DNA of 64,000 nucleotides from Trebouxia sp. TZW2008. Its lineage: Eukaryota > Chlorophyta > Trebouxiophyceae > Trebouxiales > Trebouxiaceae. This document shows positions 2,331 through 63,000 of the stretch, piece after piece (position 1 is the stretch's first letter; every line of letters begins with the position of its first letter). The stretch covers positions 62,001-126,000 of the forward strand of contig BDIU01000049.1 of the NCBI GenBank assembly GCA_002118135.1, written 5' to 3'. The translations under genes and the position numbers were made by a program. The notes beneath the pieces were generated by a model. That model was not told the origin of the DNA. It was given only the letters and a program-made list of their open reading frames with translations, and did no database searches.

Positions 2331-5300
2331 ATGCAGGATTCGGACCTAGACAAGCTCTTTGTGGAGTACTGCAAAAAGAGAGGGTATCGTTCAGCAGCTC
2401 ACACGGGGTACTCTAGCAGATGCACCGACAGACTTGCCTTGATTGCATTCTTACGGTATATTGCAGATTTGCAAAGACTGAGGCTCTGCTAAGGCAGGAA
2501 GCAGGCGTGGACAGCATGGCCTTGTCACAGAGGTTGCAGGTCAACAGCAACGGCATCGTTGAAAATGTGCTGTATTCTTTGGTCGATCAAGATCCCAGAC
2601 AGTATGCAACAAGCTTTCACAGGCTTGCTGCTTGGGTGGACAATTCCCTTGACTTGTATCGGGTGCGCAAGACAGTAACAACAGCTCACAATCTTGCCTG
2701 TCAATCAATGTTGGTCTGGTCATGGGTGGCAATGCTGAAACCCTCATGCAACATGCACAGGAGGAGCTAGCTAGAGTTCTGTACCCTTTGTTCATACACT
2801 GCTATCTAGAGCTGATCAGCAAAAGAGCAACCAGTGAAGCACACCAGCTCTTGACAAAGCAGAAGCACCGCTTCACTACCTCTGGAGCCCAGACTGCCAA
2901 GATCAGGGAACAGGTCTGCAACTACAGCCATGCCCTTGCACTACATGTACGCATCCAAGGGCATGCTGATCAGGCTCTGTGTCCCTTTGTTGTCTCAGAA
3001 CAACAAGCTCTACCCCTCAGCTGGCTACAGACAGAAGCAATCAGTTTCCTGTGGACAGCCCTGTCCCTAGCCAATCTATGCCAAGTGAAAGACACATTCA
3101 ACATGCAGCATATGCACCTGCTTGGCTTTCAATGCGTGTGCCTGATGCCAAAGGCTGTTGGGCCATCTTCTGCTAAGCAGCTCTTGGGAGCATGCCCAGC
3201 TTGGCATGCATATCAGACCAACAGACAGTGCCTGTACAAGTCAGATGTGCAAGACAGCTAGGCACCTTGCAAGAGCTGTTGTACAGTGCTGGCAACCTGC
3301 GCAATCAGTCTTGAAATGGGCAAGCTTCGCATGGCATTATGTGTACCCAGCCAGCCTGCATACCCAGGCTGTGCTGTGCAAACGTGAATGTCTGCTGATG
3401 CAGCACAGCCTCTAAATTGACGCTGGCAGTTGCAGTTGTGTCATGCCAGGAGATACAGGATCTGAATCCAGTAGCAGCCCCAGAGCATATAGCCGCCCTT
3501 TGTACCTGAGTTGTTCTGTTTTGGCATTGCTATTTGCTGATATGTCGTATCAGGAGATGCAAGAGTTGGTTTCAGTGGTAGTTCCAGAGCGTATAGGCAC
3601 CCTTCACACCTGAGCTGTTTTGTTTTGACATTGACATTCGCTGATGTGTCGTATCAGGAGATACAGGATCTGAATTCGGTGGCAGTCCCACAGCACATAC
3701 AGACCAACCGCACAGCTCAGGCAGCCAGATCAGCTCGCTACCCTGTCACACTTTCCACCTACTCGTTTCAGCTGCTCATGGCCTTCCTACAAGGATCCAA
3801 GCTCTGGCTGCTGCTGTCAATCATCAATGAGCATGTCAAAGTTCAGGTGCGTCGTTGCAAGGATATTGCTCTGATGCAGTCGATGCCCTTGCTGTTATCA
3901 TAGCAATGTGCACTGCAGTTTCTGAGCACACACCACAGCTCACTCACGCACACTAAGCACACAGATTATTCAACACCTTAAAAACAATGGTCAAATTCCG
4001 ATCAAGCTTTTTGTTGGTTTGTGCATGAATGACATCTTGCTGGGCAGGAGATAGAAATTTGTAGCTGACAAATTCTGTCAGAATTGTGAGCAGATGCCAC
4101 CAGTGTATAGGCAAACTTTAGTTGTTGCCGGCGCACCATGAGATATTACCCGACATGATAGCCGATCACTTGCATTGCCAAGCTGTTTACAGATGGTTTG
4201 TCATTTTAATCAGCACCACTCGCTGTGCAAGTCCGCACAATCAGAGCACAACCATCACATGCTGGCTGCCACGCTAAGTATCTGCCAATACAGGAGACGT
4301 CTGCCTCAGCGTGTTGGCTGCTGTGCTGCTTAGCTAAGCCTGTGCGCAAAATGTCTGCATCAGTGTATCGGCTGCTGTGCTGATTACATAGGTCCGTGCA
4401 GGAAACGTCTGCGCCAGTGGATGACATAGCCTCAGAACAGACCACCCTGCTGACAGGGCCCATCCAAGGGGATGTGGTCACCATCAACCAGAAGCCCCTT
4501 GACCTCATGCTTCTCCAGGTGACACTCAAACAGTGATACTGCAATGCGCCTGCCCAGAGCCGCCTGTCTGCTGCCATTTGATTGATAGCATGTATCATAT
4601 GCATGACACTGACTTGTACTGAACAAGCCAAGTTTGGCAAATTGGGTTCATTCCTGCTTCATGTTGTCATGAACAAGATGTGCGTGGCAGGACAATGTGG
4701 AAGACAAGTGGCGGGAGCAGAAGGCGGCAGCTGAGGAGGCAGCTGAGCTGGAAGTGGATGAGCAGGGCAAGCCCCTCACCAAGAAGCAGAAGCAGCAGCT
4801 GAAGAAAGCGGCAGAGAAGGAACGCGCCCGCCAGAAACAAGCTACCCAGGACAGGATGGAGCCCAAGGTGCCTGCAGCTTTGACAGCGTTTTGACAGGTC
4901 TTCTGTCTGTGCGGCAGTCCATCATGGCATGCATGTTTCTTGGATGGCAGGCTTCGTACAGTCAGCTGTCGCTTTGCAGTTTGCACTATGCATGCATGGC
5001 GGCCTTCTGTATGTCAAGTGTGCCTGTCCGATGCACGGCGTTAATTGCTCCACAAACGCAACTGCTTCACAGTGCTCACTGCTGCATTGCTTCACAGTAT
5101 TTGAAATGCTGCACATGTGTCAAAGTGGAGCACTTGGCCACTGACCAGACGCACTTCCGCTGCTGCTATGCATCAATGCACAGCATGATAAAACATGTGC
5201 ATGCCAAAATTCTCTCAGCATTACTTGATGACACTATGCGTCGCAGCCTCTAGCATGTTGCTTGACATAATAGCGCATGGTGTTGTTGCAGATGCCTCTC

Positions 5301-8300
5301 ATGCCCATATCAGATGAGCTAGAGGCAGAAATGCTTCAGAGCATTGAGAACAGGGCAGCTTTGAGTTCCAGTGCCCTGCCATCAGCTGCCTTCTACACTT
5401 TCATCAACAGCCATCACACCCTGAACTGCATTACCAGCTCCAGCGACGGTTCCTGTGTAGCAGGTACGTCCTGTCATGCACATCATTGCACAGACGGAAT
5501 ACTTGGCCGGCCCGGATGAGCACTGGACACATCGCATACTTAAGTCAGCGTCAAGACTGACTACCCAAGCAAATTTTGTTGTATACATGCAGCATTGACA
5601 TCAGACACTAATTTTACCACCATCAGACAGCATGCATAATCAAACAGCCTCAAGCACGATGAGCTGGGTATCATTTGCAGAAACCAGCATTGGCACTCGT
5701 CATCAGCGCCTTGAGTGCGCTGGTGAGTGTGATCAAGGGTCTGTGCAAGAAGCGATGCCTGCTGCAATCTTTCTACGCAAAGTTTGAACCTGCTCAGTAT
5801 ATGCCTCAATGTGTCGCGCAAGGCACTGGACACATTGTAGTTTGTTGACAAACTATAACGTGTTTGGAGCCTTGCATGCGACAATGGCAGCGCAAGCCAA
5901 TACAAGCTCCTTTCTGCTCACAGACAAACTAGTCCTGGCTTCTAGACTTGCATCTCACAGCTCAGGTGTTGCACAACAAAACATCAACCCCATCAATTGT
6001 CAATGTCAACGGTCAGACACAGAAAGTCTGACTGTCGACTGTCTGTGTCTGACTGTTTTGCATCATATTGCGCAGATTACCACGTTGCTGCAAGCCTGCC
6101 AGTGCTGCTGTATCAGGCCTCAGATTATATACATATATAACGCTGTGATGGGCATAAGCATGCCAGATAATGCATGATGGGCTGCAGATGGTTCTGCTGA
6201 GTCACCTGTGCGCATCCCTGGTGTGCGTGACTTACAATTGTGTAATGATGCACATCTCACATGGTGCGTGGCGGGCTGCAGCTGGCTTTGCTGACTCATC
6301 TTTGAGCATATATAATATGATGAATCTTTCCTACCGAGAGTTTTGGACTGATTTACTTTGAGCAAACTTGCCTTGTGTGCCTTGCATGTGACATCAAGGG
6401 CAGAAGCCCGCACAAGCTCCTGATAGCAGTTCTTGACTAGATAAGCTAGCTTTAGTTGTAAAATTCACGCCTCACACGCCACGCAGGTGGTTTTGCTGAC
6501 TCATCTGTACGCATCTATGACCTTGAGAAGCTGGCAGCCACCCGTAAAGCGTCACAGCAGGAAGCAGCAGCCAATCAAAGTGCAGTCAGCCTGCTGTGGG
6601 GCCATTCTGGGGCAGTGTATGGTCTTGACTATAGTCCTGATCAGCAGCTGCTGTACACCAGCTCAGCTGATGGCACAGTGCGGCTGTGGAGCACAGAGCT
6701 GGGTGTGAATCTGGTCGCATACAGGTGTGCTCCGCTGTGCTGCACTGTGCTGTGCTATGACATGCTGTGCTATGTGGTGTAGATTGCAGCCCTGGCAGTT
6801 GCTGTACACCAACTCAGCTGATGGCCCAATGCGGCTGTGGAGCACAGAGCTGGATGGGAACCCAGTAACCTACGGGTGTGCCGTGCTGTGCTGTGCTATG
6901 CTGTGCTGTGCTGTGTTGTGCTGTGCTGTGCTGTGCTGTGTTGGCTTTCCAAAGAATTTGTTGTGCTTGTAGACATCATATTTGTGAGCTGTGTTGAGAT
7001 CCCAACTCTTTGACCTTGGTGCTTTGGAATCTGTAGTAGCTGCTCATAGTGCTAGTCATTTATTCATAAGAGGCATGGTAGATCTCATTGGAGACCCATT
7101 GCTTTTGGCAGCAATGCAGCTGTGAAAAGGTAATGCTCTTCTAATTTTAGATCAGCATGACTAAGAGCAGAATAGGTGCAAGGCTCATGGGAGCCCTTGA
7201 ACATGGACCTGAATTGCTGCAGCATGCAGGGGCCACAACTTCCCAGTCTGGGATGTGGCTTCTTCGCCACATGGCTACTACTTTGCCAGCGCCTCAGCAG
7301 ATAAGACAGGCAGGGTGTGGTGCACAGACCGAGCCACCCCTCTGCGCATCTTGACAGGCAAGGCGCCTGGCCTCATTGCAACAGTCAACTGTAACTACTC
7401 CTGTTTGTAAGTATGTACTGTCATGGGCATTGTACTTGCATATGTGTGACAATCAAGTCACCAGTCACCGCCCTTCTCAGGTGATCCAGTCATTGACTCA
7501 ATGCGTACAGAAAGAAGATGGCAAAAAGACAGGAGCCTCGTGCCTGCCAGCACTCCATTCAATTCATGCCATGGCTGTATGGCACACATATAAGCACTGC
7601 ATACTGACAATTGTTCTTGTCTGTCTCATCAAGATTGTCTGCTGCTTTCCAATCAGAACTGTTTGTCAAGCTGGCAGGTCTGAATGACAGCAAATGCAAC
7701 TGATGTAGCAGCTTTGATGACACTCAACAAAGCTGTGTATTTTGATTTTCAGTCAGAATGGAGCAATTTGTGTGTTTCAGAATGCACAGTGCAAAGCAGT
7801 AACGGACTTTGGACTTGCTCCACTTACATAGCATCATGCCCATGTTTGTGGACAAGAAGCAGCGGCAGATGTGCATCAATACAAGCACACGGCGTTTTGG
7901 CTAAGCACAAAAGAATGCACGACATGAGCATCAGGCTTCCGCCTGCAAGGCATCAGTCAGACGTGGATGTGGTGCAGTGGCACCCCAATAGCCACTACCT
8001 GGCCACAGGCTCCAGTGAGCGCTCCACTTGCACTAGATCAATCTTTCGCAAACAGGAAAATGCATGCATTAGTGTAGGCACTGCTCACAGGGGTGCAGGA
8101 CATGAGGCCTGTCATTACTGCAGGGCATCAGTCAGATGTGGATGTGGCGCAGTAGCACCCCAATAGCCACTACCTTGCCGGACTTGGACTGTGGACAGCA
8201 AATAGCAATAATTACGTAGCAACAGCCAGTGTTCACATCAGTTCAGGTCATGAGGCCTTTCATCAGTGCAGGGCATCAGTCAGATGTGGATGTGGTGCAG

Positions 8301-10282
8301 TGGCACCCCAATAGCCACTACCTGGCCACGGGCTCCAGTGACCGCTCCATCAGGCTGTGGGACGTCAGAGATGCCTCCACTGCTCGCGTCTTTGTTGGCC
8401 ATCGCTCACCTGTAAGTCCATACTGCGCCCCTGTTGCTCTGTTTCTTGACAGTCCAGCATTTAGCTTGATTCTAGTCTGTCAGCATAGTCATAGGCTTGG
8501 GTGACCGCTGCATCAGGCTGTGGGATGTCAGAGATGCCTTCACTGCCCGCGTCTTTGTTAGCTACTGCCCCCCCTAAGCTCACCTTGTGCTGTTTTGTGC
8601 ATGTTCTGATCCATCAGAGTTGACAATGTCTAGCTTGCATACTGAAGATCCAGCACATGTACAGTACTAATTGCCTACGGCCATGTGATATGTGAGCAAC
8701 TGATCCTGCTGTTCCCAAGATGCAACAGCAAGGGCAAAGTACAATATCAAGCAGGCAACATAGAACTTAAAAGACTCAAGCCAAGACATGATTTCAGCAT
8801 CCACATGCTCTGCACATGCCAGATGTTCATCACTCACCAGTGAACCTGCCCATGTCTGCCAATCTGCTATCATCTGCTATGTTTTCTCTTTGTTGGCCCA
8901 CATGCTCTTACTTGCTCGCAATATCAAGAAAGTTTGTGCCAACTGTGTCATGTGTTGTGTTACCTTTTGACCCATCTGTTTCCAAGTGCCTACTCTCCCT
9001 CACAACATCAAAAACTTTCCGGGTGCAGGTGACAGCGCTAGCTTTTTCTCCTGATGGGCAGATGATGGCATCTGGCAGTGAGGACGGCTCCCTCATGCTG
9101 TGGAACCTGAAAGATGCTCGCCGCTTCACATTGGCCCCACAGCATAAAGGCCCAGTCTGGAGTTTGGCATACAGTCAAGGGGATGGCAGCCTCCTTGCCT
9201 CAGGTGATTGCAAGTTACTCAAACTGTATGCTGCGACAGAGTACAATGAAGGTCTTGCTCCTTTGGATTTCACCTCCATTTTATCACCTGATGTTCATAT
9301 TGGCAGATGATTTTCATTATCTTGTGTGCCATCATGGGCAATGCTCAGAACGTCTCTGTACTGGGTATAAGATTGTATGCACAATAAAGGGCTAGCTGCA
9401 GAATACATGTGATTGCTGCATTGTGGGCGCCACACACATCTGGACTGCTTCTGAATGTAATGCTTATGACTGAAGTCAGGGCGCATAAAAAATTCAGCCA
9501 ACACAAAAGCTTTCAGATCTTGGAGCGGTGCAAACTCAAGTTGCGTTGAGCGTCTATCAAATGCTTGTTTGCTGCATCAACAGCATTAGCTGCAGTCAAA
9601 AGCAGAAGCAAGCTGCTTGGGCAGTAAACTCATGCAGCTGCCAATCTCATGCTGTGTGTTGCTGCCGCATAGACTGCCTGCTGCTGCTGCTGCTGCTCTG
9701 CCATGCTCTGCACACCCCACGCTGATGCTCACACTGCTTATTGACAGAGGTGACCGTTGGCTTGCAGCTTCACATGCAGCATACATCACATGGGTCTTGC
9801 ATCCCAGTGCATCTACACAAGCCCAGTGTGGGCTGGGGTTGCAACACAACTCCCGCATTTGGCTGACTCAATCCACTGCATCATGCAAAGCTACTAATTG
9901 TTGCTTCAAGCAGCAGTTCCAGACTGCCTCTGTGAAAAGAGGCTCTCAAAAAAGACCTCAAATGGCATAGAGTTTTCCTTTTTGTGCTCATGCAGCTTGT
10001 TGTGATTGGCGCTGCAGGTTTGCTTGGCAAACATTCCAACTGTCTTGCATTCCAGTGCATCATTGCATATTTGTTGTGGTTGATGCTGCAGGCAGCGCAG
10101 ACCACACAGTACAGCTGTGGGGAGCAGCATCAGCAGAGGGGCAGCAATCAAACGCAGCAGACAGTACAGCCCCACTCAAGCCGCTGCGCACTTTCCAGAC
10201 AAAGGCTACCCCAGTCTTTCATGTGCATTTCACTCCCATGAACCTGCTTATAGGGTCTGGGGCCTTGACTTTGAGACGTTAG
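2331..10282 (+). CDS. TAF5: TAF5, TFIID/SAGA WD40 subunit
   Basis: Scaffold subunit of general transcription factor TFIID (TAF5 is also found in SAGA), acting in the nucleus. Twelve exons: 2331-2407, 2467-2662, 2761-2913, 3658-3846, 4402-4518, 4691-4867, 5292-5463, 6487-6724, 7230-7357, 8272-8411, 9029-9203, 10092-10282. All phases agree and the total is 1953 nt (650 residues), normal for plant TAF5. Exon 1 carries a LisH-like motif ([17 protein letters not shown]). Exons 2-4 form the TAF5 N-terminal domain 2 ([19 protein letters not shown], then LLSIINEHV). Exon 6 is a charged lysine-rich linker. Exons 7-12 encode WD40 blades ([46 protein letters not shown]), ending TPVFHVHFT before a short tail. 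Intron 9 has a GC donor. Several introns hold decayed copies of exons 4, 5, 8 and 10. Confidence 0.93.
3450..3657 (+). repeat. Two tandem relics of TAF5 exon 4 start
   Basis: Two 104-bp units directly before exon 4 repeat the end of intron 3 plus the first ~45 coding bases of the exon. The exon-like GAGATACAGG/GAGATGCAAG starts fall at 3450 and 3554, and the real exon starts at 3658, so both periods are exactly 104 bp. Each copy keeps a CAG or CCAG acceptor and diverges from the exon beyond ~50 nt. They are tandem exon-edge duplications that could act as decoy acceptors. Confidence 0.85.
4294..4401 (+). repeat. Two tandem relics of TAF5 exon 5 start
   Basis: Two 54-bp units before exon 5: exon-like starts at 4294 (GAGACGTCTGC) and 4348 (AAAATGTCTGC), with the true exon at 4402 (GAAACGTCTGC). 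Both periods are exactly 54 bp (18 codons). The first unit keeps a CAG acceptor; the second has CGC in its place and looks dead. Confidence 0.8.
6188..6330 (+). repeat. Two relics of TAF5 exon 8 start
   Basis: The exon 8 beginning (acceptor, GGTTTTGCTGACTCATCTGT, starting at 6487) has two weaker copies in intron 7 at about 6188 and 6282. Both follow a GCTGCAG acceptor. The copies decay after ~35 coding bases, and the second contains a TGA. Confidence 0.75.
6790..6877 (+). repeat. Relic of TAF5 exon 8 end with donor
   Basis: Copy of the last ~80 bases of exon 8 (WD40 blade core reading [18 protein letters not shown] in place of [18 protein letters not shown]) about 150 bp downstream of the real one, including a GTGTGC donor-like end. 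It stays open in frame, so inclusion as a duplicate blade is formally possible, but no acceptor in the right phase is evident. Confidence 0.8.
6878..6945 (+). repeat. (TGTGC)n microsatellite
   Basis: Imperfect pentanucleotide tract of GTGCT/GCTGT units in TAF5 intron 8. A shorter related tract lies at 6727-6775, directly after the real exon 8 donor. Both begin at the donor of the exon copy or exon, so the microsatellite was probably part of the duplicated unit. Confidence 0.85.
7949..8176 (+). repeat. Two relics of TAF5 exon 10 start
   Basis: The WD40 exon starting [20 protein letters not shown] (real copy 8272-8411) has two upstream copies. The one at 7949 is intact in frame for ~26 residues but loses its second half. 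The one at 8124 carries a stop in place of the Trp codon (TAG). Both retain an acceptor-like AG before GGCATCAG. Confidence 0.85.
8500..8580 (+). repeat. Relic of TAF5 exon 10 end
   Basis: Second half of exon 10 duplicated about 163 bp downstream (reads [19 protein letters not shown]). The donor is lost: the real exon ends CACCT|GTAAGT, while the copy has a C-run then TAAGC. Together with the upstream copies, exon 10 has been partly copied on both sides. Confidence 0.8.
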
Positions 10283-12073
10283 CCGAGTGTCTACAAGCCT
10301 GGCCAGTCAAGTCGTATAGCAGCCTACTGCTCTGTCAATTGCCCCAGTTTTGCTTAATCTGCTGGTGTCATAGCAATTATGATGTTGCACTGTGCAGCCC
10401 GTTAATAGCTAGTTACTTTGCCTGCCATTCTGTACAAGACATAAAGCATATGCTGTTTTGAGTGTCTGGCACCATGTTTCTTGCATTGCATGTGCCCTCT
10501 GCACATTGAGTCTCAAAGTGAGTCCAAATTAGAAGCAAGCTGTGTCACTGTGCTGCGAGTGCCGACGTGGCATCGCATTGCAAGGGTCTGGTTTCAGCTG
10601 CAGTGCTCAAAAGGCTGGACCAACGCGGTCCCAAGCTGCTTTATCTCAATCTTAAGTCAGTCAATGCATTGTCTCCACAGCTGCCACACACATGCAAGCT
10701 CCGGCTAATCAGACGTGCAAGCTGCTAGCTGTCGTGACAACGCATAAACACTGGCAAACCACAATGCAGTCTGCGGATGGCTGAGTCGATGATACACACA
10801 TGCAATCATTGAATGTCGACAAGCTTGTTTGGTTTGAGACCTATTCATCAATTGTGACTTAACCAGGAGGAACAGGCCAGACTTTGATGCTAAGGCAGGA
10901 TGGCAATCACAAAACCAGTACAGTTGTTGCTTAACTGCTGAGCCCCGGCAAGGGCTCTCCATGGAGAGCCAACAGAATGCGCCGTGCTGGACTTGCCATC
11001 CTACAAACAAAAACCACGACAAGCTTTCGCATCAGTTAACATGCCGATTGTCAGCACCCTTCTGGCAGCCAGCAAACTGTCAAGCAGGATGGACAACAGG
11101 GGGTTCTATGCCTCAAACTGCAAGGTGTTTGCAGGCTGCAGCTACAAAGTGCTGTGTGGCGCAGAAACAGCCGAGTATTACTTTGAGACCGGCACAATCG
11201 CGATCTGTTGCCTACAATATTTGACAATCGCTTCAAGCCCACGCCAGGCACATGAAACAAAACTTTTATGTGTATGGCTGCCCGCGCCACTATTCCCCTG
11301 ATTGCCCCTTGGAGTGTTTGCTACTGTCCCTAACACTCAACATCGTTACAAGCCAGCAGCAGGTTACGAGCATGCTTGCAGGCCTTCCTGGGAGCAATAT
11401 GTCGACAAGGCAGCAGCAAGTTAGGCACGCGACAATACATCTGCGAAGTGTAGCGACTGGTGTATATTCCTTGCGCAAAGTTCAGAGGGACATAGTGCTA
11501 GCTCTGAGAGCACATGCTCTCAGAATGCGAAACAACCAGTCCTACTGGCATTGGCCCTATAGCCCGGTCGGCTCGGTCAAGACCCTCCAGCACATAGGGA
11601 AGCCATAAGCAGACAGCTAGCCAACTGGAGTGTCAGAGTGTGCAGCGAGCAGGTTCTGCCGGTGTTGGTGTTTTCAACACATAGACTCCGGGGCCTGGGC
11701 TCGTCTGCACTGGTTGGGGGGGGGTGGGCACAGGGCCCGGGGGTTCCAAAGACCAGCAAGCAGTGTATAAACACCAGGTAAGCAGACGGGATCAGGTACG
11801 TCAGAGGTAAGTATATGCTGCTTGCTGCTTTTGTATGGCAGCTGCGTGCCAGTGCATGATCATGATGTAACATGTATGCTATCAAGGTCGAGCCCATGAT
11901 AGCAAGTTTGCGTGTGCGTGCTAGCTCAAATCTGCAAATTTCATGAATTATCAGTGGATCCACAAATGTGATGCACATTCCAGGTCCTCTTTGAACAAAA
12001 TTTCTTGCAACACACATGTATTGTGCAACTGAGACTTCTGGCGCATCAGCAAAGGAAGCAGCTAGAGCTTTGG
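10283..12073. other. Convergent intergenic region, no gene recognised
   Basis: Between the TAF5 stop and the TTC33-like stop. Short open frames occur (for example + strand 11041-11220), but none shows a recognisable domain or consistent splice phasing. A G-run lies near 11714-11725. It should contain the two 3' UTRs. Confidence 0.45.
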
Positions 12074-13367: not shown

Positions 13368-13661
13368 ATGTGAAAACCGCATGCCTGACGAGAATCCTTG
13401 TCACTCACAAATTCATGGCGCCGGCAAAAGCAAAGACTGCGACCATACTGGGTGACACTTAAGTCGCATCTGCACACAGCCGCGGCAAAAGCCTATCGAA
13501 GTGTAAGACGACAAACTGGCCGCTGCATGCACACGGTCAACGTTTCGTTCAACCGACATTTGACCTGAAGTTGTTTCGGTAGCTGACAGCCAACGGCAAT
13601 ATGCCTGCTTGTCTATCGCCTGTACGACGACCGTACGGGACTCTTTCACCGCTGCTGAAGC
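13368..13661. promoter_or_regulatory. Bidirectional promoter, TTC33-like / carotenoid oxygenase
   Basis: The 294-bp gap between the divergent start codons of the TTC33-like gene (-) and the carotenoid oxygenase (+) must hold both promoters and 5' UTRs. No TATA box or other element stands out. Confidence 0.6.
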
Positions 13662-16600
13662 ATGGCAGTCGGGTGCGTATTGCCCAGCAGCGGCAGGCTT
13701 GCTCGCTCTGCAGCGTCCACTGGTACACGCTCATGCACTTGGCGTTCTTGTGCCACGCTTACGTTAGGGCGCAACCTTAGCGGCAGATGTCGGCGAAAAC
13801 ACATGCATTTGCGAGTCCAAGCCACTGCTGCACCTGAGATGGGGACCTCGGTCGCTGTCAAAGCAACGGTGCGCTCATCCCCTTTGCACACTCAAGTGCC
13901 CGTCATCACGAGGTCTACGTTTCACCTCGACGTATGTTTGCCTGACAAGCGTGTGACCTTGGGGATTGCACTGTAGGAGACCTCATCTTCAGACAGATAT
14001 CAACCGTCTGATTTCGCTGCTGCGATGCGAAGCCAACTTCAGGAGTATGACTATTGGATCACAGATATAGAGGGGCAAGTGCCTGAGGCACTTAGAGGCA
14101 CGCTGTTTCGCAATGGACCAGGCAGGTTGACAACATTCTTGTCTGCTGTGATGCTGTGCTTGCTTGCGCTCTGCATTATGCCAGATCATAGCTCAGGTCA
14201 CGTACATGAAGTAGGTCAACTTAAAGGCATAGCCACTGTTGTGTTTCAATTCTTCAGTGAAGCCAACAAAACGTGAGCTGCATGTTGCAGGTTTGAGCGT
14301 GGAGGTCAAGAGTACCATCACAAGCTAGACGGAGATGGGTATGTTTGCTCTTTCAGCTTCAATGAAGAAGGGAAGGCACACTTCAGAAGTGCATACGTGC
14401 AAACAAGGTAGTGTCAGCATCCTTGTCATCATTTACTTGCGAGTGAAATGCCTGCAAACAGTGCTGTTCAAAGCCACTTCGTGCAGCAAAGTCAGCGTGC
14501 AGTCAAGCCTCTGCTGCTTCACCTCAACCCATATATGCCATGACTTACAGTTGCAATATTCGTGGCAGCATTCTCTTCTACGACGCAGTGCATACTGGTG
14601 ATGCAGTATACACTATGCATTGGTTGTCCTGCAACAGTGTGTCCGCACCTGCACGCAGCTGCAGATAATCACTTTCAGCTGTCAATTCTGAGTGCAAGTC
14701 AATGGTTGCTGGACGCAGCAGCGTCTCATGGAAGTTTCTGCTGAATCTCAGCATTAAATCTTGACTTGCTGATGCAGTGACTTGCAAAGGGAAGCTGAGG
14801 CTAATAAGATCCTGTATCGGACCATCTTTGGTACTCAACCCAAGAGGCGCTTTGGTGCAATTCGAAATATCATTGACTTCTATGTCAAGAACCCAGCAAA
14901 CACCAATGTTGTTCTGTGGGGTGAGAGGCTGATTGCCCTATGGGAGGTGAGAAGTCCTTGTACTTAGTCATCTTGTCGGTGCATTGTATCCTGCAGCAGC
15001 AATAGAGAGGGAGAGAGAGTGTTTATTCCACATGCTTTAGCCAGCCAACAAGGCTGATCGCATGTGCCACACACTGGCAATGACTATATGTCCATGAGGT
15101 CTATAACATAGTGAAACGCCCCCCCAATGATCACGCTGCGCAAAGAGAGCATACATGTTATGTTCGCAGCCCTGAAACGAGTGAGAAAATCCCAACAAGC
15201 AACAAGCGCATTGAATTGTCCTTGACATGTAGTCATCTGCTCTGGCGAGACAGCCTCAGGCCACACAAAATTAGTACCTGTGTCAGGAACGATAGCTACC
15301 TCAGGGTTGTGGCTGTATTCGTCATCATTGTTGTTATTGTCATTTCGAGCGCCTTGAGCACTGCACCCCCACACCCTGAAGACCCACCCCGGCCTGAGCC
15401 CCCTAGGTGGCTTCCCAAGCATCCACCCCAACCCTGCCCATATTACGTGTATAATCAGTACCGTCATGACCATTGTCATGTCTGTTGTGCTCATTGTTGT
15501 CATTATGTTGTTCCCAGGGAGGAGCGCCTTACGCACTGGACCCCCACACCCTGAAGACTCACCCCGGCCTTGACTCCCTGGGTGGCTTCCTACCCACCCA
15601 CCCCACCCCCCAGGACAAGCTAGCCACAGCCCTGCACCATGCTGTCGGAGAGGCTCAAGATGCGGCCACAGGGACTGGCACCAGTGTGAAACAGGGCGAC
15701 GGGGAGGCAGTCGGCAAACTGAGAGCTTGCACGGCTCACCCCCATGTTGTGCATGGACCCGATGGCTTGTCAACCAGACTGGCCCTTTATGCATCCTCAA
15801 TGTGAGTCCCTTGATGCTGTGCCACCTTATACAAGCCCTGTTGTGCCAACAACCCGTTGTGGGTTGGCTGATCAAGCTATGTGGCGTATGGGAATGGCTT
15901 GTCAGACAGACCAGCTATCTGTCTATGCATCTTCAATGTAACCCCACTGATGTCGTGCACACTTGTTCAAGTGTCAGGTCTGAAAGACTCACATCCAAAC
16001 TATGCGTGGGGCTGACATCTCGGTCAGACCGGCCATCTCTGCATCCCAGATTCAAGTCCAAGGTGCATATAAGCAGCTTGTCAGACAGATTGACCATGGA
16101 CGTATTCAAGATAGGGACTCAATGATGAGGACGCACCCTCGTGCAAGTATCTGTTGTGGGCAATCTTGCCTGACAGACTGGCAAAGCATGCATCTCAGAT
16201 GCAAGCGGATTGATGCTATGCATGTTGTTCCAACTTTGTTGTGCCAGATTTTGAGAAATTGTTTATGCAGCAGGTTTGCCAGACAATCACGCAGAAAGTG
16301 TTGCTGGGCCAAATACACGAGTCTATACAGTACAACATTCTGAGCCAAAACAAAGGGACAAAGCACACCAGCCTTTCAGGGAAGTCGCAACGTTGATAAC
16401 TTGTACCCTCAAACATTGCGCAGTACACATGTAATGGACATTGCATATGAAGTATGGTGATTTACTGAATAACAGTGCTGATGACACCATATCTGCATGC
16501 AGTCAGGTAGATCTCAGAGGGTTTGGGATGGAGGTTGAAGTTGCTGAGTTTGACCAGCAGTGGCAGCGAGTTGCTGGGCAGACCTTCAGGATGGACAACA

Positions 16601-17672
16601 CAGTCTTTGTGCCCCATGACTTTGCTGTCAGCGAGAACTACTACGTCTTTTGGCAGAGTGCTGCAGGGCTTGACCTGGTAGGTCTGTATCACTTATGCTT
16701 CTCTGTCTGTGTGTCATCTGTGTTGAGGATGGACAACAGGGTCCTTTGTGCCCCATGACTTTGCAGTCAGCCAGAACTACTAAGTCTTCTGTCAGACTGC
16801 TGCAGGCCTTGACTTGGTATGGGCCTGGAACACTTATGGCTTTGGCTGTGTATGCATGCGCTTGTGCCTGTGCCAATGCCTGTACAGTGAACTCTTTTTG
16901 TAAGGACCCTAGATGTAAGGAAAATCTCGATGTAACAGCCACGCCATTGTTAAGCAATCACTGCGTTCTGGCTGCGGTCATCCTCTGAGTAAGGACCATT
17001 CCATGTAAGGACAAGTTTGTTGGTAACCAAAGCAGTCATTACAAGGAGAGATTACTGTACTTGTGTCTGTGTGTCATTAATGTACAGGATGGACAACATA
17101 GTCTTTGTGCCTCGTGACTTTGCCGTCAGCGACACTATGACATCTTACATTACTGTCACATCTTCTGTCAGAGTGAAGAAAGCCTTGACTTGGTAGGCCT
17201 GCATGATGATTTCAATCTGACAGACATGATTGCGGGAAACTTGTGCTAGGCCGGTATGGTCTGTGTCTGTGCCTGTTTGACCTGTATTGGTGAAGATGTT
17301 GGTGCCTGTGCCGGTGCGTGGGCCAGTATCAGTATGCGCGCTCTCCATTTGGCAGCAAGCATGCCTTGCACATTTCTCTGGATCAGGCTGACTCTGCTCG
17401 AACACTTCATTGCTGCCTCTATCACTGCTTTGTGCCTACCTGCATTGTATGAGAGCATGAATTTGTCCTAGTCACTGTATTTCTTGTGGAATGCATTGCC
17501 ACTGAAATCAATGAACTTGACCTAGCCATTGCTGCTTTGCAGATGAGCTTCTTGCTTGGTAAAAAAGCGGCAGCAGAGTCCCTCAATCTGGTTGACAAGC
17601 CAACAAAGATCCATCTGGTGCCCCGCAATGGAGACCCGCCCATTGTAAGCCCCCATTCCTCAACCACCCCCT

Positions 17673-17708
<36 letters not shown>

Positions 17709-41700: not shown

Positions 41701-43358
41701 ACTTGCTGGCCGTTGCAAAGAAAGGCTCATGAGCAACATGGCTGCCATCCTTCACCAGCAGAGTGCCTGCAGCATTTGCTTCATGACTATCACAAAACAC
41801 AATTTCTCTTCTGGACTAAATACGCTAATGGTTACAAAGAAATGCTCGTGTTTAACATGGCTACCAAAATTCACCAGCAGAGTGCCTGCAGCACTTTGCT
41901 GCATGGCTATGATGAAGCACAGTTTTATGCAGCTGCTCAGGCATTTGACAAGCATCTGTTGATTGTGCACAAAGTTGCCATTGCACAGAATCAGAATCTG
42001 GTTATGAAACCACACAAGCACAGCACATAGGCATCATTAATTGCTCCAATTGAATGGTATGGAATGATTGTGATGTCAGCGCTGAGCTAACTGGAATGTG
42101 GAGGCAAGCCCACCAGTAACAACCTGTTCAAAGAGCCAATGCTGTATCAGCACTAGAAACCCTGAGCACATGACTGCTGCCGACACAAGAGAGCAACTGG
42201 GATGTGAAAGCTGAGGGGCACACTCACTGACTCACTAAGGACTTTGTGGATCTGAAAGGATCACAACTGACAGCACCTAATGGTGTCGCAGACAAACGAT
42301 CCTGCTGGAATGGTTTGCAAGCCCTGGCAGCTCTGTGCACATCACTGATGCAGTCAGTATGTCATGCTTGTGAGATGTACCAGTGTCAGGACCAACATCA
42401 ACCATGTTGATAATGCCTTGGATGCAGGCTACTCCTTTTCTTAGCGGCGCTTGGTCACAGTGCAGCCAGTCATCAGTAGACACAGTGTGCTTGCCTGGCC
42501 TCAGCACATTGATGCTGTCAAAAGAGGCCAGAAGCTCATTGGTTCCCCACAAATGTTGGAAAACCTGCGTGGCTAACATTTATGTCAAACCCTGCTGTTG
42601 AAATAATGCTATGATGCACAGGCTAGGCCAACAATACTGCAGGGGCTCCTGAGACACAGCATTGCAATTGCACTCATGTTGCAGCATACATGCGTCACTG
42701 GACAAAATTGTGCAAATATCAATGTGCTGGGAGAAAAGACGCAGACTTCAAGAAGCAAACGCATGCGCAGCATTTTGCACTGACATTTGCTTCTACCTGC
42801 AGGACCTTTGGATGACTGCGTGCCTTCCACACAAAATCCTGATGTGCAACTTCTAAAACATTGATGATGCCCTTGAAAGTGGGTGGCCACTGCTGGTCTG
42901 TTCAACTCTCAGGATCATCTCTGTTCAACAAGCAGTGATCCCAGACACGCAGCATTGCAGCCAAAGTATTGACAATCAGGCCAAGACCGCAAAAAGCTGG
43001 CTGACCTTGAGATGCCTGTGCCAAGCGACTCAAGCCACTGCCACACGCTCTCGACGTATTTGGCGCATTCTTCTCGCGAAACGAGGTCTGCAATTATGGT
43101 CCAGCCGCACTGCTCTAGTTGCAGAGCTGCTTTGGCGGCCACCAGGCGGGCGATTCTGGGGCCGAACGCATCAGCTTGGGAAAGCTCGCTACTGGCAGGC
43201 GTTGTAGCACTGGCAGCACAGGTTCGTATTGTCTGACGCATGCGCACATGCCGTGCGAAACGCTGCCTGACAACAATAGACCTTGCAGAGCGCGCTGCAT
43301 GCAGGCGTAGACCAGGCAGTGGTGAGGTTGATACAGACAAAGCAACATCGCCTGCCAT
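38764..43358 (-). CDS. PhyH-like 2-oxoglutarate dioxygenase with in-frame TGA
   Basis: Phytanoyl-CoA-dioxygenase-family Fe(II)/2-oxoglutarate enzyme; substrate unknown. Exons: 43358-43006, 42920-42797, 42564-42381, 41766-41648, 40805-40703, 40167-40061, 39399-39274, 38898-38764; 1251 nt, 416 residues, all phases consistent. The first ~50 residues are Arg/Ser/Ala-rich, like an organelle transit peptide. The Fe site is visible as WLHCDQAP (His-x-Asp, exon 3) and TAHQNV (distal His, exon 5). GTLLVKDGSH follows the first pair, and Arg in KWRHVVY may bind 2-oxoglutarate. Codon 124 is TGA (42904-42902) between DDPES and TDQQWPP, where a Trp would be expected. No phase-compatible acceptor keeps exon 2 and avoids it. 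Either a nonsense mutation, so a decaying gene, or an assembly error. Confidence 0.82.
41812..41893 (-). repeat. Relic of PhyH-like exon 4
   Basis: Copy of the exon 4 acceptor and ~75 coding bases (reads TLLVNFGSHVKHEHFFVTIS against TLLVKDGSHVAHEPFFATAS), displaced 119 bp upstream in transcript order. Open in frame with an intact CTGCAG acceptor, so it could compete with the real exon. Confidence 0.85.
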
Positions 43359-43385
43359 TGCAAAGCCGTCTGATTCTTGTCAAGC

Positions 43386-49000: not shown

Positions 49001-49032
<32 letters not shown>

Positions 49033-51044
49033 AGCATTTGACTGTCAGGGCGGTCTGGATTGATCACGCTCAGCTCTATATGGTTTGGGTGACAGTGTGC
49101 GATGTACATGCCGCAGTAGTGTAGCTGTGCTGTCAGCCTCTGAATGCCGAATTGAGACAAGACTGGCTGGCCACCTGCAATGCAGCATTGAGGTTTGCTG
49201 TACAGACGCAAGGCGCATTAGCAGTAATGCAGCAATTTGATGCCTTCTTGCAGCTGCCATGACACAGCTCATGCAGTCTCTCAGCAGCTTGCCTATGCGC
49301 CGCTGCAGCTTGAAGGTGGTATCGAAATTTGTAAAACATTTGACTTGGTTCAATCAACTTACTCATGTTCTGATGTTGTGACTAGTATTGCTGACTAGTA
49401 ATGCTGACGATGCAAGGAAGCAACAGCGTCATGCTAGACCCTCGGCTAGGCAGCTAGTCCAAGCACAGCTGATCCAGATGCTACCCTTGGTGATGACAGC
49501 CACAATGGTTGCATCCAAGCTGGCGTGACAAGACTGAAGTCACGCACACCTAGCAGTTCAACAGCACATGTAGTAATGTTGTCAATCACAACAGTTATTC
49601 TGGAGTTTTCTTGTGTTGTAGCGGTTTCATGCTGAACAGTACCTGCAACTCTGCCAGGCCGCCGTACAGAATGGGCAGGGGTGAGACCAGCAGTGCTTGC
49701 CAAGCCGCTTGAGACAGCCCCCACCAAGCCCAGGGCCCCACTGAGGGGTAGCCCCACCACCCCCAACAGGCCTCGACCCATACCTGACAACACAGGTCAT
49801 TACTTCACTACAGCTTCACTGTTGGTATTGCCACTGCTCTTTTCAACAGCAGTCACAGAGGAAATTCCAACCAGCTGACAGAAGTCAACTTGACACACGG
49901 CAAACGGTAGGCAGAATATGCCAATGCTGGCGATGATCAAGACTTCTTGGAACTGAAGACAGACCCAGATTCAAGATTGATGACAAGTACAACAACAGTT
50001 TCAGCCTCAGCAATTGAGTGTCCTGATTTACAAGGCACAATTGCTTGGCGACTGCATGGCGACTGAATTGATTGTCCAGCTCATCATGCAGCAGAGCATA
50101 CATCGGAAAATCATTTCAGCATAGCAGATGCAACAGCCTCATGCAACTTGCAAATCTTTACAGGCCTCCTAAGGGATGTTGTTACACGTCAACTTCCTGA
50201 CATATAGTGCACAAAATGCAGCTATCATCCAGCAGACAAGAAAGCTCATGGCAACAATATGTTTGGTTACTACCTGCAATGACGCCAGTGCCGTCATTAT
50301 AGCCCTGAATGGGGGCTCGCACTACTCCTGTCACCCCTGCAGACACCCCTCCTACCAGGCCCCTGAGGCCCTGTCCCATCACCTCCCTCTTCCCAGCGTC
50401 TCCCCTGCACAGTAGTTGTCATATAAGGACTTTTGACATCAGGAAACTCTTGATGCAAGGACAATGCAACTGAGGAGCAGTCACTGCATTCCGCCTGTGG
50501 CAATGCCTCTGATATCCACAACTCAAAGTAAGGACAATTCCTTGGTAATCAAAGCGGTTGTTACAAAGTACAACTACTGTATAGCATGTCATCAATCAAT
50601 CGTTTGCTACAGGCATGTCAGCGCTGACTGGGCATACTTCCTCAAACACCTGCTCATACCATATCATCAGCCTTTTGGACCTTCAATCAGAATTGCCGGT
50701 GGGAGGGATCTGTTCACTCAGTGATGGCAGCAAGTATCAGCTTGCAGTACCAATTGCTGTGGTGCAGATAAGTACTCTCAGTATAGCAGCAAACCTGGCT
50801 GCAGGCTGGGACTGGAGGGCTCTTGCAAGCAGCTTAGAGGAAGCATTGGAGAAGCCCCCAATGCTGCCCAGGGTCCAGGCTGACAGCTGCCGCACAAAGG
50901 TGGCCCCTCCGGCTCCCAGGCCCACCAAAAACTGCATGCGCAACACAAAGCTTGCTCAAATATCAAGAATATGTGTTTCTTAAACTGCCAGGCAAGCTGG
51001 CTGTACTACAGCTACCTGCCCTGTACAGCTTGACTGATCTTGGC

Positions 51045-51078
<34 letters not shown>

Positions 51079-54000
51079 GGCCCGTATACATTTTGTTGCA
51101 ACAAACTTGATATTTGTGTGCTTGCTACAGCTGTTACAGGTCATCAATGCCCCACCTGCGTATCAAACATACTTGTCGTGACAATCAGAGCAAGCCAGCC
51201 TGGCAAGACACGGGCACACAGCAAAGACCTGCGCCTGTGCATGCAACCTGTTATTGTTGAGTACTGAGACGGGTGGGGCAGGTGCAAACCTGGGATGGAG
51301 ATCGAGCCTCAAGGGCTGCCAAGGGCCCCAGCAGGAGGGAGCCCCAAGCCTGAGTAAGGCTATGCAGCAAGCCAGTGGGATTGAACAGCAAATCCAGCGA
51401 GCCCAGCATGCCCGGGGCGCTCAGCAGGGCCTCTGCTAGGGCGTGTGCCAGCAACCCGTGCAGCATGACTGAAGGCCGGAACAGCACCCGCCCCGCCCCG
51501 ACCCCTGCTATCCCCAAGGGGGCTCTGCATGGCATGGGTCATTGTCAGTGATTGTCAACTGGCAATGCCAGTCACAGATGCAGCAAGCACCAAGCTAGGA
51601 CTGACAGCCAGAATAGGTGCCGCTGGCCCAAGCCTGATATCTCCAACATCCTCCTACATGGCATCAGCAACTGTCACTTGCCTCGAGTCCAGACTGCCCA
51701 GCACGCCTGGGCCTCCACTAGGGTATGCAGCAGCAGTCCTTGCAGCATGACAGTTGACCAGAACAGCACACACACACTGCTCACCCTGCTACCCAAAAGG
51801 GGCTTTGCATGGCATGGGCTATTGTCAATTGCACTGATCACCAAAACTTGCAGAAGTTTTCAGTCATACTCGACGTTTGGAGCAGCAGCTGCCCCATCTC
51901 CACCCCTGTTACCCCCGAGGGGGGCCTGCATGTCATGCATGAATGGCATTTGGCATTGACACTAGACACGGTCAATAGTCACTGATGGAAGCAGCGCTGA
52001 GGGTGACAGCATGCCTGCAAGGGGCCAGCATGACATGGGTATCACACAAAGCGCCCCTTGAATGCTGCACGCACGGTCACTGCATCACAATGCTTGTGGT
52101 TATGCCGTATCATAGACAAGTCTAACTATCATGATACATCCATCAGCACTTTGATGACATGAGCCAGAATCTGCAAGCCATACCTTTGCGTATCTAGCGC
52201 AAATGGGATGTTGGGTCCGCCATCCGCCACATGTACGTCAAAAAGCAACTTGATTTGAGCAATGCTGAAATTGCGCAGCAGTAGGCGTGGCGCAGCAGCT
52301 GCTACAGATCTGACCAGCAGCTCTGCACTGAGCTGAGCATCTGCACAGGACAAGGCAGGCTGCCTGGGGGGTCCAGGGGGCTCCAAGGGGGATGGATGGG
52401 GGTCAGGGGAGGGTGTGAGGGACCTGATGCCCATGGGAGCTGATGGCGAGAGCTGTGGCGGTGTGGTGGTGGCTGTTGCAGCTGCTGTGGCTGCTGTGGC
52501 AGCTGCCATATTGAGTAAGGAGGTGCCTCCCGGCTGTGAGGGGGAAAGAGGATTGTGCCAGGGGCTTGATGGTGGAGCACCTGTAAGCAAATTGTTGGCG
52601 CTTGCGCATTGAATCACACATGGTGAGGTGTGCTAGGTTTGCCAGCATCTCCTATGATGACAGACAATGTAGGCACTGAAATGATGAATGATGTTGCATG
52701 TGCAAAATCAGCAAAGCTGCAACACAGCTGCTAAGAACAAGCTTCTAGACAATTATATCAGCACATCTATAGGGTCCTGAGAAACCTTTCAAGATGTTTG
52801 GACAGCTGCACTGCTGTCTGTGATGGGCGACCGCCGCAGTACAATTGCCAGACAGCATGGGGATGACTTTACTGACCTGTATTTGCACCATTGCCAAAGT
52901 TGTCCAGCGCAGCATTCAGCTGTATTGCTTGCCGTGCCCGCTGCACCAGATTTAATGGACTGCCTCCTGGCGTCCACGAAGGCAGACCAGGGCTGTTTCC
53001 ACCACGCCTGCTGTGAGTCATGCCTGGGGCGTTTTGGTGCAGCCCTGGGGCTGTTGAGCTCATTTGGGCATTTAGTTGTTGCTGAGTTGGGTTCACTAAA
53101 TGCTGCATGCAGCGCTCCACTAAGGCCACGAATGAGTCGTCAATGGCGACTGCAATGCACGGCAGCTGCAGGACCAGGTGCTGTACCCAGGTGTTGATAA
53201 AGTTGCGAGGGGTCGACACAGCTTGACAAGCTTCCTGCACCTGTGCAAGCAACACAACCTCAGCGCCTCAAAGCATCTGACGGGTGCAGGCCAGCATGGC
53301 AGGTAACAAGCAGCAAATGTCTGTCTATGCGATTAATTGTGTCCAGCATAAAGCATTGGGTGATAGCTGAGCTGTAAGAGTCTGACAAAAAGTGCTTTGA
53401 CACCCTGTCAGACACGCCTGTATGAGAAATGCGCATGATAAGCCATGCCAGTCATTGCCTATCTTGCGTCTGCCTGACTCTGAGCATGGCCCTATTGCAA
53501 GCACTACGACTTCCGGAACATCACAACAAAGCAACTGTTTTCCTTGCAAGCTGGGGGCAAAGCTGGAAGAAGAGGAGTACTGCTCTGCCGCAGAGGAAAT
53601 TGGGGAGTGCAGAATGACAGGATGGGTGCTATCAGTGCAAAAGTTGGTCTATTGCAGCAGAACAGAAAGCAGTCACTGTACCTGCAAGCTGAGGGCGAAG
53701 CTGGAAGAAGAGGAGTGCTGCTCAGTAGGATAGGAGCCCTAGAGCCACATATTGACAGCATGGGTGCTATCAGTGCAGAAGATGGTCCATTGCAGCGGAA
53801 CACAAAGCACTTACTGTACCTGCAAGCTGAGGGCGAAGCTGGAAGAAGAGGGTTGCTGCTCAGTAGGAGAGGGGCCCTGGGACTGCAAAATGACAGGATG
53901 GGTGCTGTCAGTGCAGAAGGAGTCCCACCGCAGTCCTTTGGCAGTCACCTCCAGGTCATACTGTATGCATAGCGTTGCAGCCCGTCCGCCTGCAGCAATA

Positions 54001-60000: not shown

Positions 60001-63000
60001 GCAAGCACCAGGCAAGCACTATCAATGTGCAGACAATTGTCAATGGACCGAGATGCAGCCCACCTGATGAGCACAGCACGCCCCTGGACATTCGGCAGGG
60101 GCCTTGGCAAGCTCAGCAGATCTTTTTTGACACTTAAGGGCAGTGACCAAGCATCAGCCTTCTTGACTGTGTGAGTGCCAATTAATGATGGGTGTGACAA
60201 GCCTTGACTCTGGCTGAAGGACAGAGCCAGGCTGGCTGGTTCCAATAGCACCTCTTCTGTCAGGCTCATGTCATCCACATGATTGACGCCCAGGTGGGCA
60301 CACGCGTCAATAGTGTAGGCTGTTGGCCATTTAAAACATGTCACCTGCAACAGCGGATAGTGTAGTTGGTTCCAACAGCACATCTTCTGTCATCCACATG
60401 ATTGACGCTCAGGGAGGCTCGTATTCCAACACTGTTAGGCTTTTGGCCATCTGAAACATGCTACCCGCAATATCAGGTAGAAGTGTGATTCAATCAGCAG
60501 CTTGTCTGTTAGATCCAGGTCAGTGACATAAATGGTACCCAGGCGGGCAAATATGTCAGCTTTGTTAGGCTTTTGGCCATCTGAAACATGCTACCTTCAG
60601 CAGCAAATAGTCTGGTTGATTAAAGCAGCACGTGTCCTGTCAGGTTCAGATCTTCCCAATGGTTGACACTCAGGGACACATGTGTCTTAACACTGTAGGC
60701 CATTTAAAGCATGCTACTTGAAACATCAGTATCTCAAATGCTTTTACTGAAACAGTTGAAAAGACTGGCACATGCCTCAACTGTGTAGGCTTTTGGCCAT
60801 ACCAAATATGCTGCCTGCAACACCAGATGGCATGATTGCTGCTTTGCTCAGGGGAAGCCATTGTACTGCCTGGCACATAGCTCAACCATGTCCCCTCTCA
60901 AAGCATAGGCTGTGTCGACACTAGCAGATGTACCAGCAAGGCAGTGATGTGCACTGCACCTCCAAGTCATGACCACCAGGCATGAGCAGTCCAGGGGAGG
61001 TGACCAAGGACAGTCAAACAGGTATGCACAGGCCGCACTTTGCCCAATCACCCTAGAGCCATAGTTTTCACGCATGCACCTGTACATTCACCGTCAGACA
61101 CAGGCAGTCATCTTGTAACGCTTCACCGTCAAGCAACAGGCTGTGCAACCCCATCAGATGTACCTGTAAAGCAGTGATGTGCACTGCATCCAAGTCATGA
61201 CCCTTGCAGTAGACACGCCCAAGGAGAGTCAAGAAGGTGTGCACAGGCTGCATGATGCGGAACAACGCTATTTTCACAAGCGTCATCAGCACAGTATTGC
61301 ACACCTGCACCTGAACTTACGCACAGGCTGTACAGCTGCTGAACCTCTCCGCAAACATACCTGCATGGCAGTGATGTGCACTGCAGCCAAGTCTTGCTGA
61401 CTCCCCACTCCACAGCTTGCATCAGGTGCCTCCACCAGCAGACGCAGTCTGACGTCCTCCATCTGCAGGGTGACGGTCAGGGGTACAGGCTGCAGGGGGG
61501 GCAGGTGGGTTGTGAGGGAGGCTGGGTTGATCAGCAGGTGCTTCAGAAGGGCCCTGCCTGTGGGCTGGGGCGTTTTTAATGAGCCCTTGCAGCGCAGCTG
61601 CCAGTCCACAGCAGCAACAGGCTCTGTCTGCATTCGTCATCACATATGTACATACCCTAAAGACCCTGACTAGGTAACCCAAATATATGTACATGTTGGC
61701 CAATGAGGTACTGTGACCCTGCTAGGTGCATGGAGCTGTCTGCAATGTGCAACCAATTTTGTTGCTCCATGCTGGAATTGCTGAAGTCACAGTCTTCTAT
61801 ATATTGTAGCTGGTGGTGTCCTCTGCTGTCTTGTTTTGCAGTCTTGCGAAAGTGTCTGTGAATGCTGAGGATCACGCTTTGAGAGCTCTGCTCTTGATTG
61901 ATGACACAAGGTTCTGACTGCAAATGTCAACAGGCACATGCTGTGAAGCCCGCCTTCTGTGTCAAGACTACTGCTGTTTGCACAACCCGTATTGTTGCAT
62001 CACTCAAGGCCTTCAGTCATCTTGAAGCGTTGATGTTGCGGACGAGCCTATGGTTCTGGTGTACAAAGTATGACGTAGATCAGGCATTTGGCAGCATATG
62101 CGCAACTCAAGCAATTGTCTGTGATGTACATGCTTGTGAGGGCCCAGGCCATTGAAAACATCGACGACGCCATTTGCAGGATCAGGTGTTGTGATAAGTG
62201 CATGACATACCATAAACACTAGGAGACCCCCTGTGATTGCATCAGCGTGCACGGAGCAAGGCAGAGGAGTGTAGTCATCTTCATCTGATGTTGCATGGCA
62301 GATCTCTAGCTCTGCTTCTGCCAATAGCTGCACCCCTCCCTCAATGCACAAGGCCTGCAACACAGAAACTGTATCGACACAAATGTCCACTGTCACAGAA
62401 GTTGTGTGTGGGTGGGGGGGGGAGGTCAATGGGGTTGTGGGGAGGGGGAGGGGTCGGCGGGGTTGTCATACAAACAACATGAAGTCCAATCAACCTGTTG
62501 CATCCAACAACCAAGGCTGCTTTGCTGAGGCCCCAAAGCAGTATAAGATGATGACTATAGTACTACAATAGGCTCTCTTTGTGATGACTGCTTGTGTTAC
62601 CCAAAAACTTGTCCTTACAACAAATTGTCCTTACTTGACTACTGCAGTCAGAATGCAGTGATTGGGTAGCAATGGTGTCGTCCTTACATTGAGATTGTCC
62701 TTACATTGAATGTCCTTACAAAGAGAGTTTACCGTTATATCATCATGCGTACAGCTGAAGACAGAGTGCATCATTACTAGTCAAGGTATACAATGTGACA
62801 AGGGAATGTGCAGCAGCTGACCTGGACAGGTCTGGGGTAGGGGTAGTGCCACTTGACCCAGGTCTCGTCCCGACCAGAGCCCCACGGGAGGTAGCCCAGG
62901 CCCTCCTCACCACAGCTTGCTTGCATAGGACCTGGCATGACAACAAGCCCTTGAAGCGCATTCACAGCTATGAATGCAGAATGCAAAAGATTGTGGGCTC

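Follow-up and report, generated by a model that had tools for sequence, protein, structure and literature searches.

The window, a stretch of 64,000 nucleotides from the lichen-forming green alga Trebouxia sp. TZW2008 (contig BDIU01000049.1, positions 62,001 to 126,000), carries genes for TAF5, a carotenoid oxygenase (RPE65 family by Pfam), CEPT (CDP-OH_P_transf by Pfam), a SUN protein and, under names taken from an initial annotation of this DNA, a PhyH-like protein (a fragment with no Pfam match) and a VPS13-like protein. The edges of several exons of these genes recur as decaying direct copies in the introns beside them. This exon-edge copying is confirmed as real and extends beyond the window: of 455 predicted exon edges, 74 are copied in the intron next to them, 17 of these being among the 110 edges of the window, and 0 have an inverted copy there.

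One genome was analysed (68.5 Mb in 527 contigs), and the main sample of 294 kb consists of the window and 23 ten-kb loci of the same genome. The counts of direct and inverted duplicate pairs at spacings below 600 bp refer to 29 ten-kb units, namely positions 1-60000 of the window and the 23 other loci. Exons were predicted with a home-made gene finder that was trained on the window and 15 of the sampled loci, starting from the TAF5 hand model plus long open frames. It predicts 8 of the 12 exons of the TAF5 hand model exactly, has one end wrong in exons 1, 3, 4 and 12 and calls two copies as exons; since it was seeded with TAF5, this gene is no independent check. The edge scan compares up to 60 exon bases per edge with up to 700 bp of the adjoining intron, at a threshold that 0.2% of unrelated comparisons pass; the far comparisons (n=1396) are with sequence at least 1.5 kb away. 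The copies catalogued in the window are the following:

3658-3846, plus strand: TAF5 exon 4, acceptor edge copied twice upstream (hand model equal to P0001, 100% over 642 amino acids)
3450-3491, plus strand: decaying acceptor-edge copy of TAF5 exon 4 with its AG retained, followed at a period of 104 by a second copy from 3554
4291-4419, plus strand: 54-bp array of 2.4 copies with decoys of the acceptor edge of TAF5 exon 5 (4402-4518)
6282-6313, plus strand: copy of the acceptor edge of TAF5 exon 8 (6487-6724), AG kept (edge scan)
6795-6925, plus strand: copy of the donor edge of TAF5 exon 8, 81% identity, offset 151 (self-BLAST)
7944-8026, plus strand: copy of the acceptor edge of TAF5 exon 10 (8272-8411) at -323, 95% identity, AG lost, intron flank without clear homology
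8124-8179, plus strand: second copy of the acceptor edge of TAF5 exon 10 at -148, AG kept, intron flank homologous
8501-8574, plus strand: copy of the donor edge of TAF5 exon 10, GT lost (self-BLAST and edge scan)
15343-15395, plus strand: copy of a carotenoid-oxygenase acceptor edge (exon from 15518; edge scan)
16757-16816, plus strand: donor-edge copy of carotenoid-oxygenase exon 16503-16677 with its GT retained (edge scan); in-frame stop by tblastn with P0121
18102-18159, plus strand: acceptor-edge copy, with AG retained, of carotenoid-oxygenase exon 18460-18659, which has another such copy at 18279
18684-18738, plus strand: donor-edge copy of exon 18460-18659 with its GT retained (edge scan)
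23869-23901, plus strand: copy of the donor edge of CEPT exon 23567-23707, GT kept (edge scan)
24702-24761, plus strand: copy of the acceptor edge of CEPT exon 24871-25163, AG kept (edge scan)
30475-30546, minus strand: donor-edge copy of SUN exon 30598-30748 with its GT retained and 89% identity over the exon part; one more, with a stop, lies at 30343-30399
29086-29184, minus strand: copy of the acceptor edge of SUN exon 28478-28810, AG kept (tblastn and edge scan)
29738-29807, minus strand: copy of the acceptor edge of SUN exon 29528-29680, offset -77 (self-BLAST and probe test; outside the 74 scan events)
41831-41885, minus strand: copy of the acceptor edge of PhyH-like exon 41648-41766, AG kept
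51879-51925, minus strand: copy of the acceptor edge of VPS13-like exon 51290-51524, AG kept (edge scan)
53682-53740, minus strand: copy of the donor edge of predicted exon 53820-53989, inside an array of 2.7 copies of 138 bp; which copy, if any, is the real exon is uncertain
60767-60814, minus strand: copy of the acceptor edge of VPS13-like exon 60064-60344, match beginning 14 bp inside the edge (edge scan)
61164-61199, minus strand: copy of the donor edge of VPS13-like exon 61361-61627, GT kept, match beginning 7 bp inside the edge (edge scan)

Most of the copied exons named in the initial annotation were recovered: exons 4, 8 and 10 of TAF5 by edge scan and exon 5 through the array at 4291-4419, two exons of CEPT (23567 and 24871), the PhyH-like exon at 41648 and three exons of SUN, two of them (30598 and 28478) by edge scan and the third (29528) by an earlier probe test. 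For the carotenoid oxygenase three copied exons (15518, 16503 and 18460) were found instead of four; for the VPS13-like gene, copies were found at four edges (61361, 60064, 53820 and 51290) instead of five, and the one at 53820 is possibly a decoy that was mistaken for an exon: its mismatches, 9/7/3 over the three codon positions, speak against a true exon. A duplicate pair that may bear on the TTC33-like exon of the initial annotation was returned by self-BLAST of the window at 12140-12195/12328-12383.

Locality and extent of the copying

The duplications are local and direct, as initially described. Within the window, self-BLAST found 50 direct pairs less than 500 bp apart, 16 direct pairs farther apart and 4 inverted pairs at less than 500 bp; in the 29 units there are 251 direct versus 5 inverted pairs at spacings below 600 bp, covering 12.3% of the DNA, and no pair at all after Markov shuffling (one shuffle each, 21 of the 29 units). 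The claim that distant exons are not copied also held: the 1396 far comparisons gave 2 direct and 4 inverted matches. About half of the 241 pairs with offsets of 20-800 bp have offsets of 75-224 bp. Tandem duplication of whole exons and pseudo-exons likewise leave exon-like sequence in introns, but the copies of Trebouxia are mostly edges and only 2 of 65 span a whole exon.

Copying was said to affect most genes of the window. For the genome such a statement is too broad: at least one edge copy is present in 17 of the 24 loci, and the loci differ from each other beyond chance (simulation p=0.0002). Neither is copying a phenomenon of exon edges alone: pairs within introns or intergenic DNA (102) are as numerous as exon-intron pairs (105), the remaining 34 being exon-exon pairs, which makes the edges part of a broader process of local duplication. 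Introns that carry an edge copy have a median length of 571 bp (n=39) and those without one a median of 306 bp (n=107; 146 confident introns), in agreement with the proposed lengthening of introns, and this gap is partly expected because longer introns are larger targets. Whether the process is continuing, as also proposed, is uncertain: 13 of the 241 pairs are at least 92% identical, and collapse in a short-read assembly, if this assembly is one, could hide young copies and cause them to be under-represented.

Decay of the copies and splicing

In 63 of 74 copies the homology comes to 8 bp or less from the junction, as expected if a contiguous stretch that crosses the junction is copied, and GT or AG is retained in 47 of 59, consistent with the earlier proposal that decoy splice sites arise. 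When the first 65 events are pooled, mismatches by codon position are 223/197/357 (46% at third positions) and stops amount to 2.8%, with 2.9% expected. For a neutral copy beside a constrained exon we estimate a third-position share of 46-50%, and both the pooled mismatch spectrum and the stop rate look like those of neutral pseudo-exons. Exon-intron offsets show no bias to multiples of three (28/105). Coding constraint on the copies was considered and rejected: heterogeneity of the third-position share has p=0.054 (56 events with at least five mismatches) and p=0.42 (54 events) after removal of two doubtful exons (53820 of the window and L007 540-742), which are kept in the totals of 65 and 74 events and omitted from the comparisons of flank groups below. 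A three-copy array at another locus (L022 4857-5141) has two decoys of one exon end that both differ from it at third codon positions only, with the exception of the damaged end of the middle copy, which was read by eye; a homologous intron flank is found in the middle copy only.

The 12-exon TAF5 model (2331-10283), which contains none of the copies, is 100% identical to P0001 over 642 residues and 82% and 79% identical to Trebouxia sp. C0005 and C0009, respectively. The longest P0001 contig is 3565 bp, shorter than the 8-kb TAF5 gene, and is therefore taken as a spliced transcript without the copies, confirming the exon model. SUN orthologues (longest contigs of 1749 and 3524 bp) carry each exon once, and tblastn with these transcript-sized sequences finds both the real exons and the decoys, one decoy with a stop. 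We read the copies as decaying pseudo-exon ends that are spliced out in TAF5 and, judged by the orthologues, in SUN.

Excess at exon edges and its possible causes

Our best reading, with a probability of roughly 0.55, is local duplication that is hidden by splicing, together with a second, exon-anchored ingredient. The Trebouxia genome would carry a heavy load of local direct duplications (offsets of 50-800 bp within the range searched), for which slippage, template switching or the filling-in of staggered breaks may be responsible. Duplications that lie wholly inside an exon would usually be purged by selection. A duplication that crosses a junction would be nearly harmless: the copy joined to the exon is spliced and the other copy decays neutrally in the intron, with selection and splicing probably acting as the filter. 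Each such event would lengthen the intron and leave a decoy made of exon sequence and a splice signal.

Random tandem duplication with selection explains much of the pattern but not all of it, and several results weigh against this reading in its simple, uniform form. Copies were found at 45 of 252 edges and at 89 of 1056 pseudo-edges inside introns of 200-2500 bp, giving an edge/intron ratio of 2.12 (locus bootstrap confidence interval (CI) 1.21-6.14). Simulations that combined uniform duplication with substitution, small indels and the removal of events inside an exon or spanning a whole one, optionally with larger deletions or generic gene conversion, were passed through the same detection pipeline: without edge bias they give ratios of 0.34-0.95, below the observed value, and even an imposed threefold edge bias raises the ratio only to 0.96-1.09. 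Of 52 edge events, 35 have homology over less than 0.85 of their offset; the other 17 reach at least 0.85, and 14 of these exceed 1.15, as in multi-copy arrays. The copies are too diverged or too old for exact breakpoints, which we also count against it. Furthermore, among close copies (exon part at least 88% identical over at least 40 bp and at most 3 bp from the edge), homology continues into the intron flank in 9 of 19. Those simulations that recorded flank homology gave 71-93%; the uniform simulation used for the test gave about 89 of 100 (rebuilt from rounded bins), and the observed 9 of 19 differ from it with Fisher p=0.0001.

Exon edges thus seem over-represented among the copies. The simulations have perfect gene models and mostly shuffled introns, unlike the real data, and the size of the excess is therefore uncertain. 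An earlier and cruder probe test had given a 1.5-fold excess (55 of 412 edges and 118 of 1319 intron probes, with 41 of 502 in exon interiors and 11 of 239 between genes); the plain verdict of ordinary tandem duplication that was drawn from it was dropped when the same-pipeline simulations predicted fewer edge matches. The initial suggestion that splice-site-rich sequence causes the copying was not supported.

The remaining 10 of the 19 close copies lose homology at the splice signal. The 31 flank-positive copies that were tested show strong homology past the junction (combined p 2e-23), while in the no-flank group identity drops to background immediately past the GT of donor sides and past the TGCAG of acceptor sides. 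A step at the splice core is by itself expected, because the real splice core is constrained. Deeper in the no-flank flanks there is weak residual homology (combined p 0.0026; p 0.01 without outliers), which favours old flanks. The test for an origin from transposons or introners was negative: three spacers between real exon edge and copy, from 3 of the 26 no-flank copies, are single-copy, with no repeats of them in the genome. The test for new introns of the AGGT type was negative too: donor and acceptor surroundings are homologous in register (above the 99.9% null) in 0 of 146 introns. Generic gene conversion that refreshes copies (any pair, 85% identity) did not fit either: simulated ratios were 0.35-0.80, and 71-88% of close copies retained their flank homology (one run per setting).

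The excess at edges and the ending of half of the close copies at the splice signal together call for a second ingredient, candidates for which would be exon-biased breakpoints, exon-specific refreshing of copies and templating from a diverged homologue. The most far-reaching version, which we regard as unlikely, is an exon-aware copying, with repair repeatedly inserting into the neighbouring intron a stretch that is templated from a diverged homologous allele or from the exon itself as far as its splice signal, so that introns grow by foreign or refreshed exon ends with ready splice sites. If true, this would be a way for introns to grow that has so far not been described, and would preserve a trace of earlier exchange between lineages.

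As the sole explanation, templating by a diverged homologue appears quite improbable. Repair near an exon would insert a stretch of the allele of another lineage, whose exon is still similar and whose introns can no longer be aligned, beside the resident exon; the copy would bring its own splice signal and intron flank, and only the exon part would be recognisable. This accounts for both anomalies, the edge excess and the 10 of 19 close copies without clear flank homology, and Trebouxia lineages are reported to be extensively divergent in the part of PMC11523091 considered here. Close no-flank copies mismatch mostly at third positions (61 of 97 mismatches in 10 copies, compared with 39 of 82 in 8 flank-positive copies; p=0.05, post hoc), but over all copies this bias shows no difference between the two groups (p=0.43), the residual flank homology looks like that of old copies from the same intron and no donor allele is known.

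We give similarly little credence to exon-biased breakage or polymerase stalling, in which one breakpoint falls preferentially in exons and the surviving duplications cross edges more often. It would produce the edge excess, it fits the loss of in-exon duplications to selection that the simulations assume, and exon-exon offsets lean to multiples of three (17 of 34); however, the threefold bias is insufficient in simulation and the missing flank homology in half of the close copies stays unexplained. Ordinary random tandem duplication and decay with no edge preference, the excess being caused by errors in the gene models and unmodelled intron turnover, is very doubtful: the abundance of intron and intergenic duplicates and the limited accuracy of a TAF5-seeded, home-made gene finder speak for it, but the ratio is below 1 in every no-bias simulation, including those with strong deletion turnover, and 0 of 5000 locus bootstraps fall under 0.6. 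That the copies are functional splicing decoys or alternative exons under selection is highly improbable in spite of the retained GT or AG and of a few copies that differ at synonymous sites only (for example L022 at +222, 3/3), because pooled mismatches and stops are those of neutral decay, retention of about 80% is near the expectation for two bases at 87% per-base identity (our own arithmetic) and the copies are absent from TAF5 mRNA and SUN orthologues.

Known systems, spared genes and other features of the DNA

The initial annotation knew no standard name for the process. The general kind is named tandem genomic duplication and, according to the part of PMC3443670 considered here, is a recognised route of intron gain. 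A published junction-crossing case is the potato RdRp gene: in the passages of PMC4974935 used here, a tandem duplication crosses an intron-exon boundary and the first intron has an 83-bp tandem duplication. As in Trebouxia, the duplication lies within a gene and its coding effect is masked by splicing; in potato a new intron and an added exon segment resulted, whereas in Trebouxia existing introns grow, with the 0 of 146 in-register introns mentioned above. The passages of these two papers describe no genome with a decaying local copy at one edge in six. In two papers on Trebouxia genomes from the open-licence literature, a term search found 'tandem' in neither main text (PMC12712428, PMC11523091) and 'intron' once in PMC12712428, in a reference title, and not in PMC11523091.

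Direct local duplications are also made by repair, through fill-in at staggered breaks by CST and Pol alpha-primase (PMC8355091, in part). That system consists of mouse and human cells with Cas9 breaks and overhangs of 43-50 bp, whereas Trebouxia offsets are mostly 75-224 bp, and the passages considered make no link to exon edges. In scrambled ciliate genes, as described in part of PMC9797194, partial local duplicates beside a coding segment decay and gradually raise gene complexity, as here; the ciliate product is scrambled segments that are reassembled in development, while Trebouxia has ordinary introns. The lengthening of introns and the tolerance of decoy splice sites are usually argued from single cases. 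In Trebouxia about one in six edges has a decaying local copy, at many levels of divergence and in a genus with several sequenced lineages, and with this abundance and range one can measure how junction-crossing duplications arise, decay and are spliced, which may reveal how the structure of genes grows. Should the edge bias hold up under annotation based on RNA, a duplication mechanism tied to exons is indicated.

Dynein heavy-chain genes are largely spared of edge copies, with copies at 1 of 62 edges (0/42, 0/10 and 1/10 in L015, L028 and L029) versus 74 of 413 (p=0.0003). L015 1-10000, dynein by Pfam, has 23 predicted exons and is the locus with 0 of 42 edges copied. Dynein matches are found on 12 contigs with mostly short introns: introns above 500 bp, with lengths estimated from domain matches, number 4 of 85 in dynein versus 26 of 79 in chaperonin, SNF2 and DEAD genes. 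A rule that flagellar genes are spared was rejected: exon matches are separated by long gaps in an IFT140/172-like gene, the introns of DEAD and chaperonin genes alone do not differ significantly from those of dynein (p 0.62 and 0.17) and the copy-free loci L013 and L016 are not dynein-like by eye. The long gaps and these non-dynein loci weigh against an otherwise attractive process linked to transcription. A control with the FAT domain gave 4 matches, too few to use. The sample also gives no sign of two organisms or two genome compartments: by eye, copy-poor loci do not stand apart in a principal component analysis (PCA) of tetranucleotides (25 ten-kb units).

At L010, two neighbouring predicted kinase-like exons (6300-6365 and 6619-6871) resemble tandem duplicates with an offset of 319, and a long predicted minus-strand exon of the window contains a coding-looking repeat with a 126-bp period (36402-36960, TRF). 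TAF5 exon 9 ends with a GC donor (acag|gcaagg, 7358-7363). A dispersed repeat of about 180 bp occurs in both orientations in the window (16882-17065, 19790-19974, 29354-29524, 50424-50566 and 62564-62735) and looks like a small mobile element.

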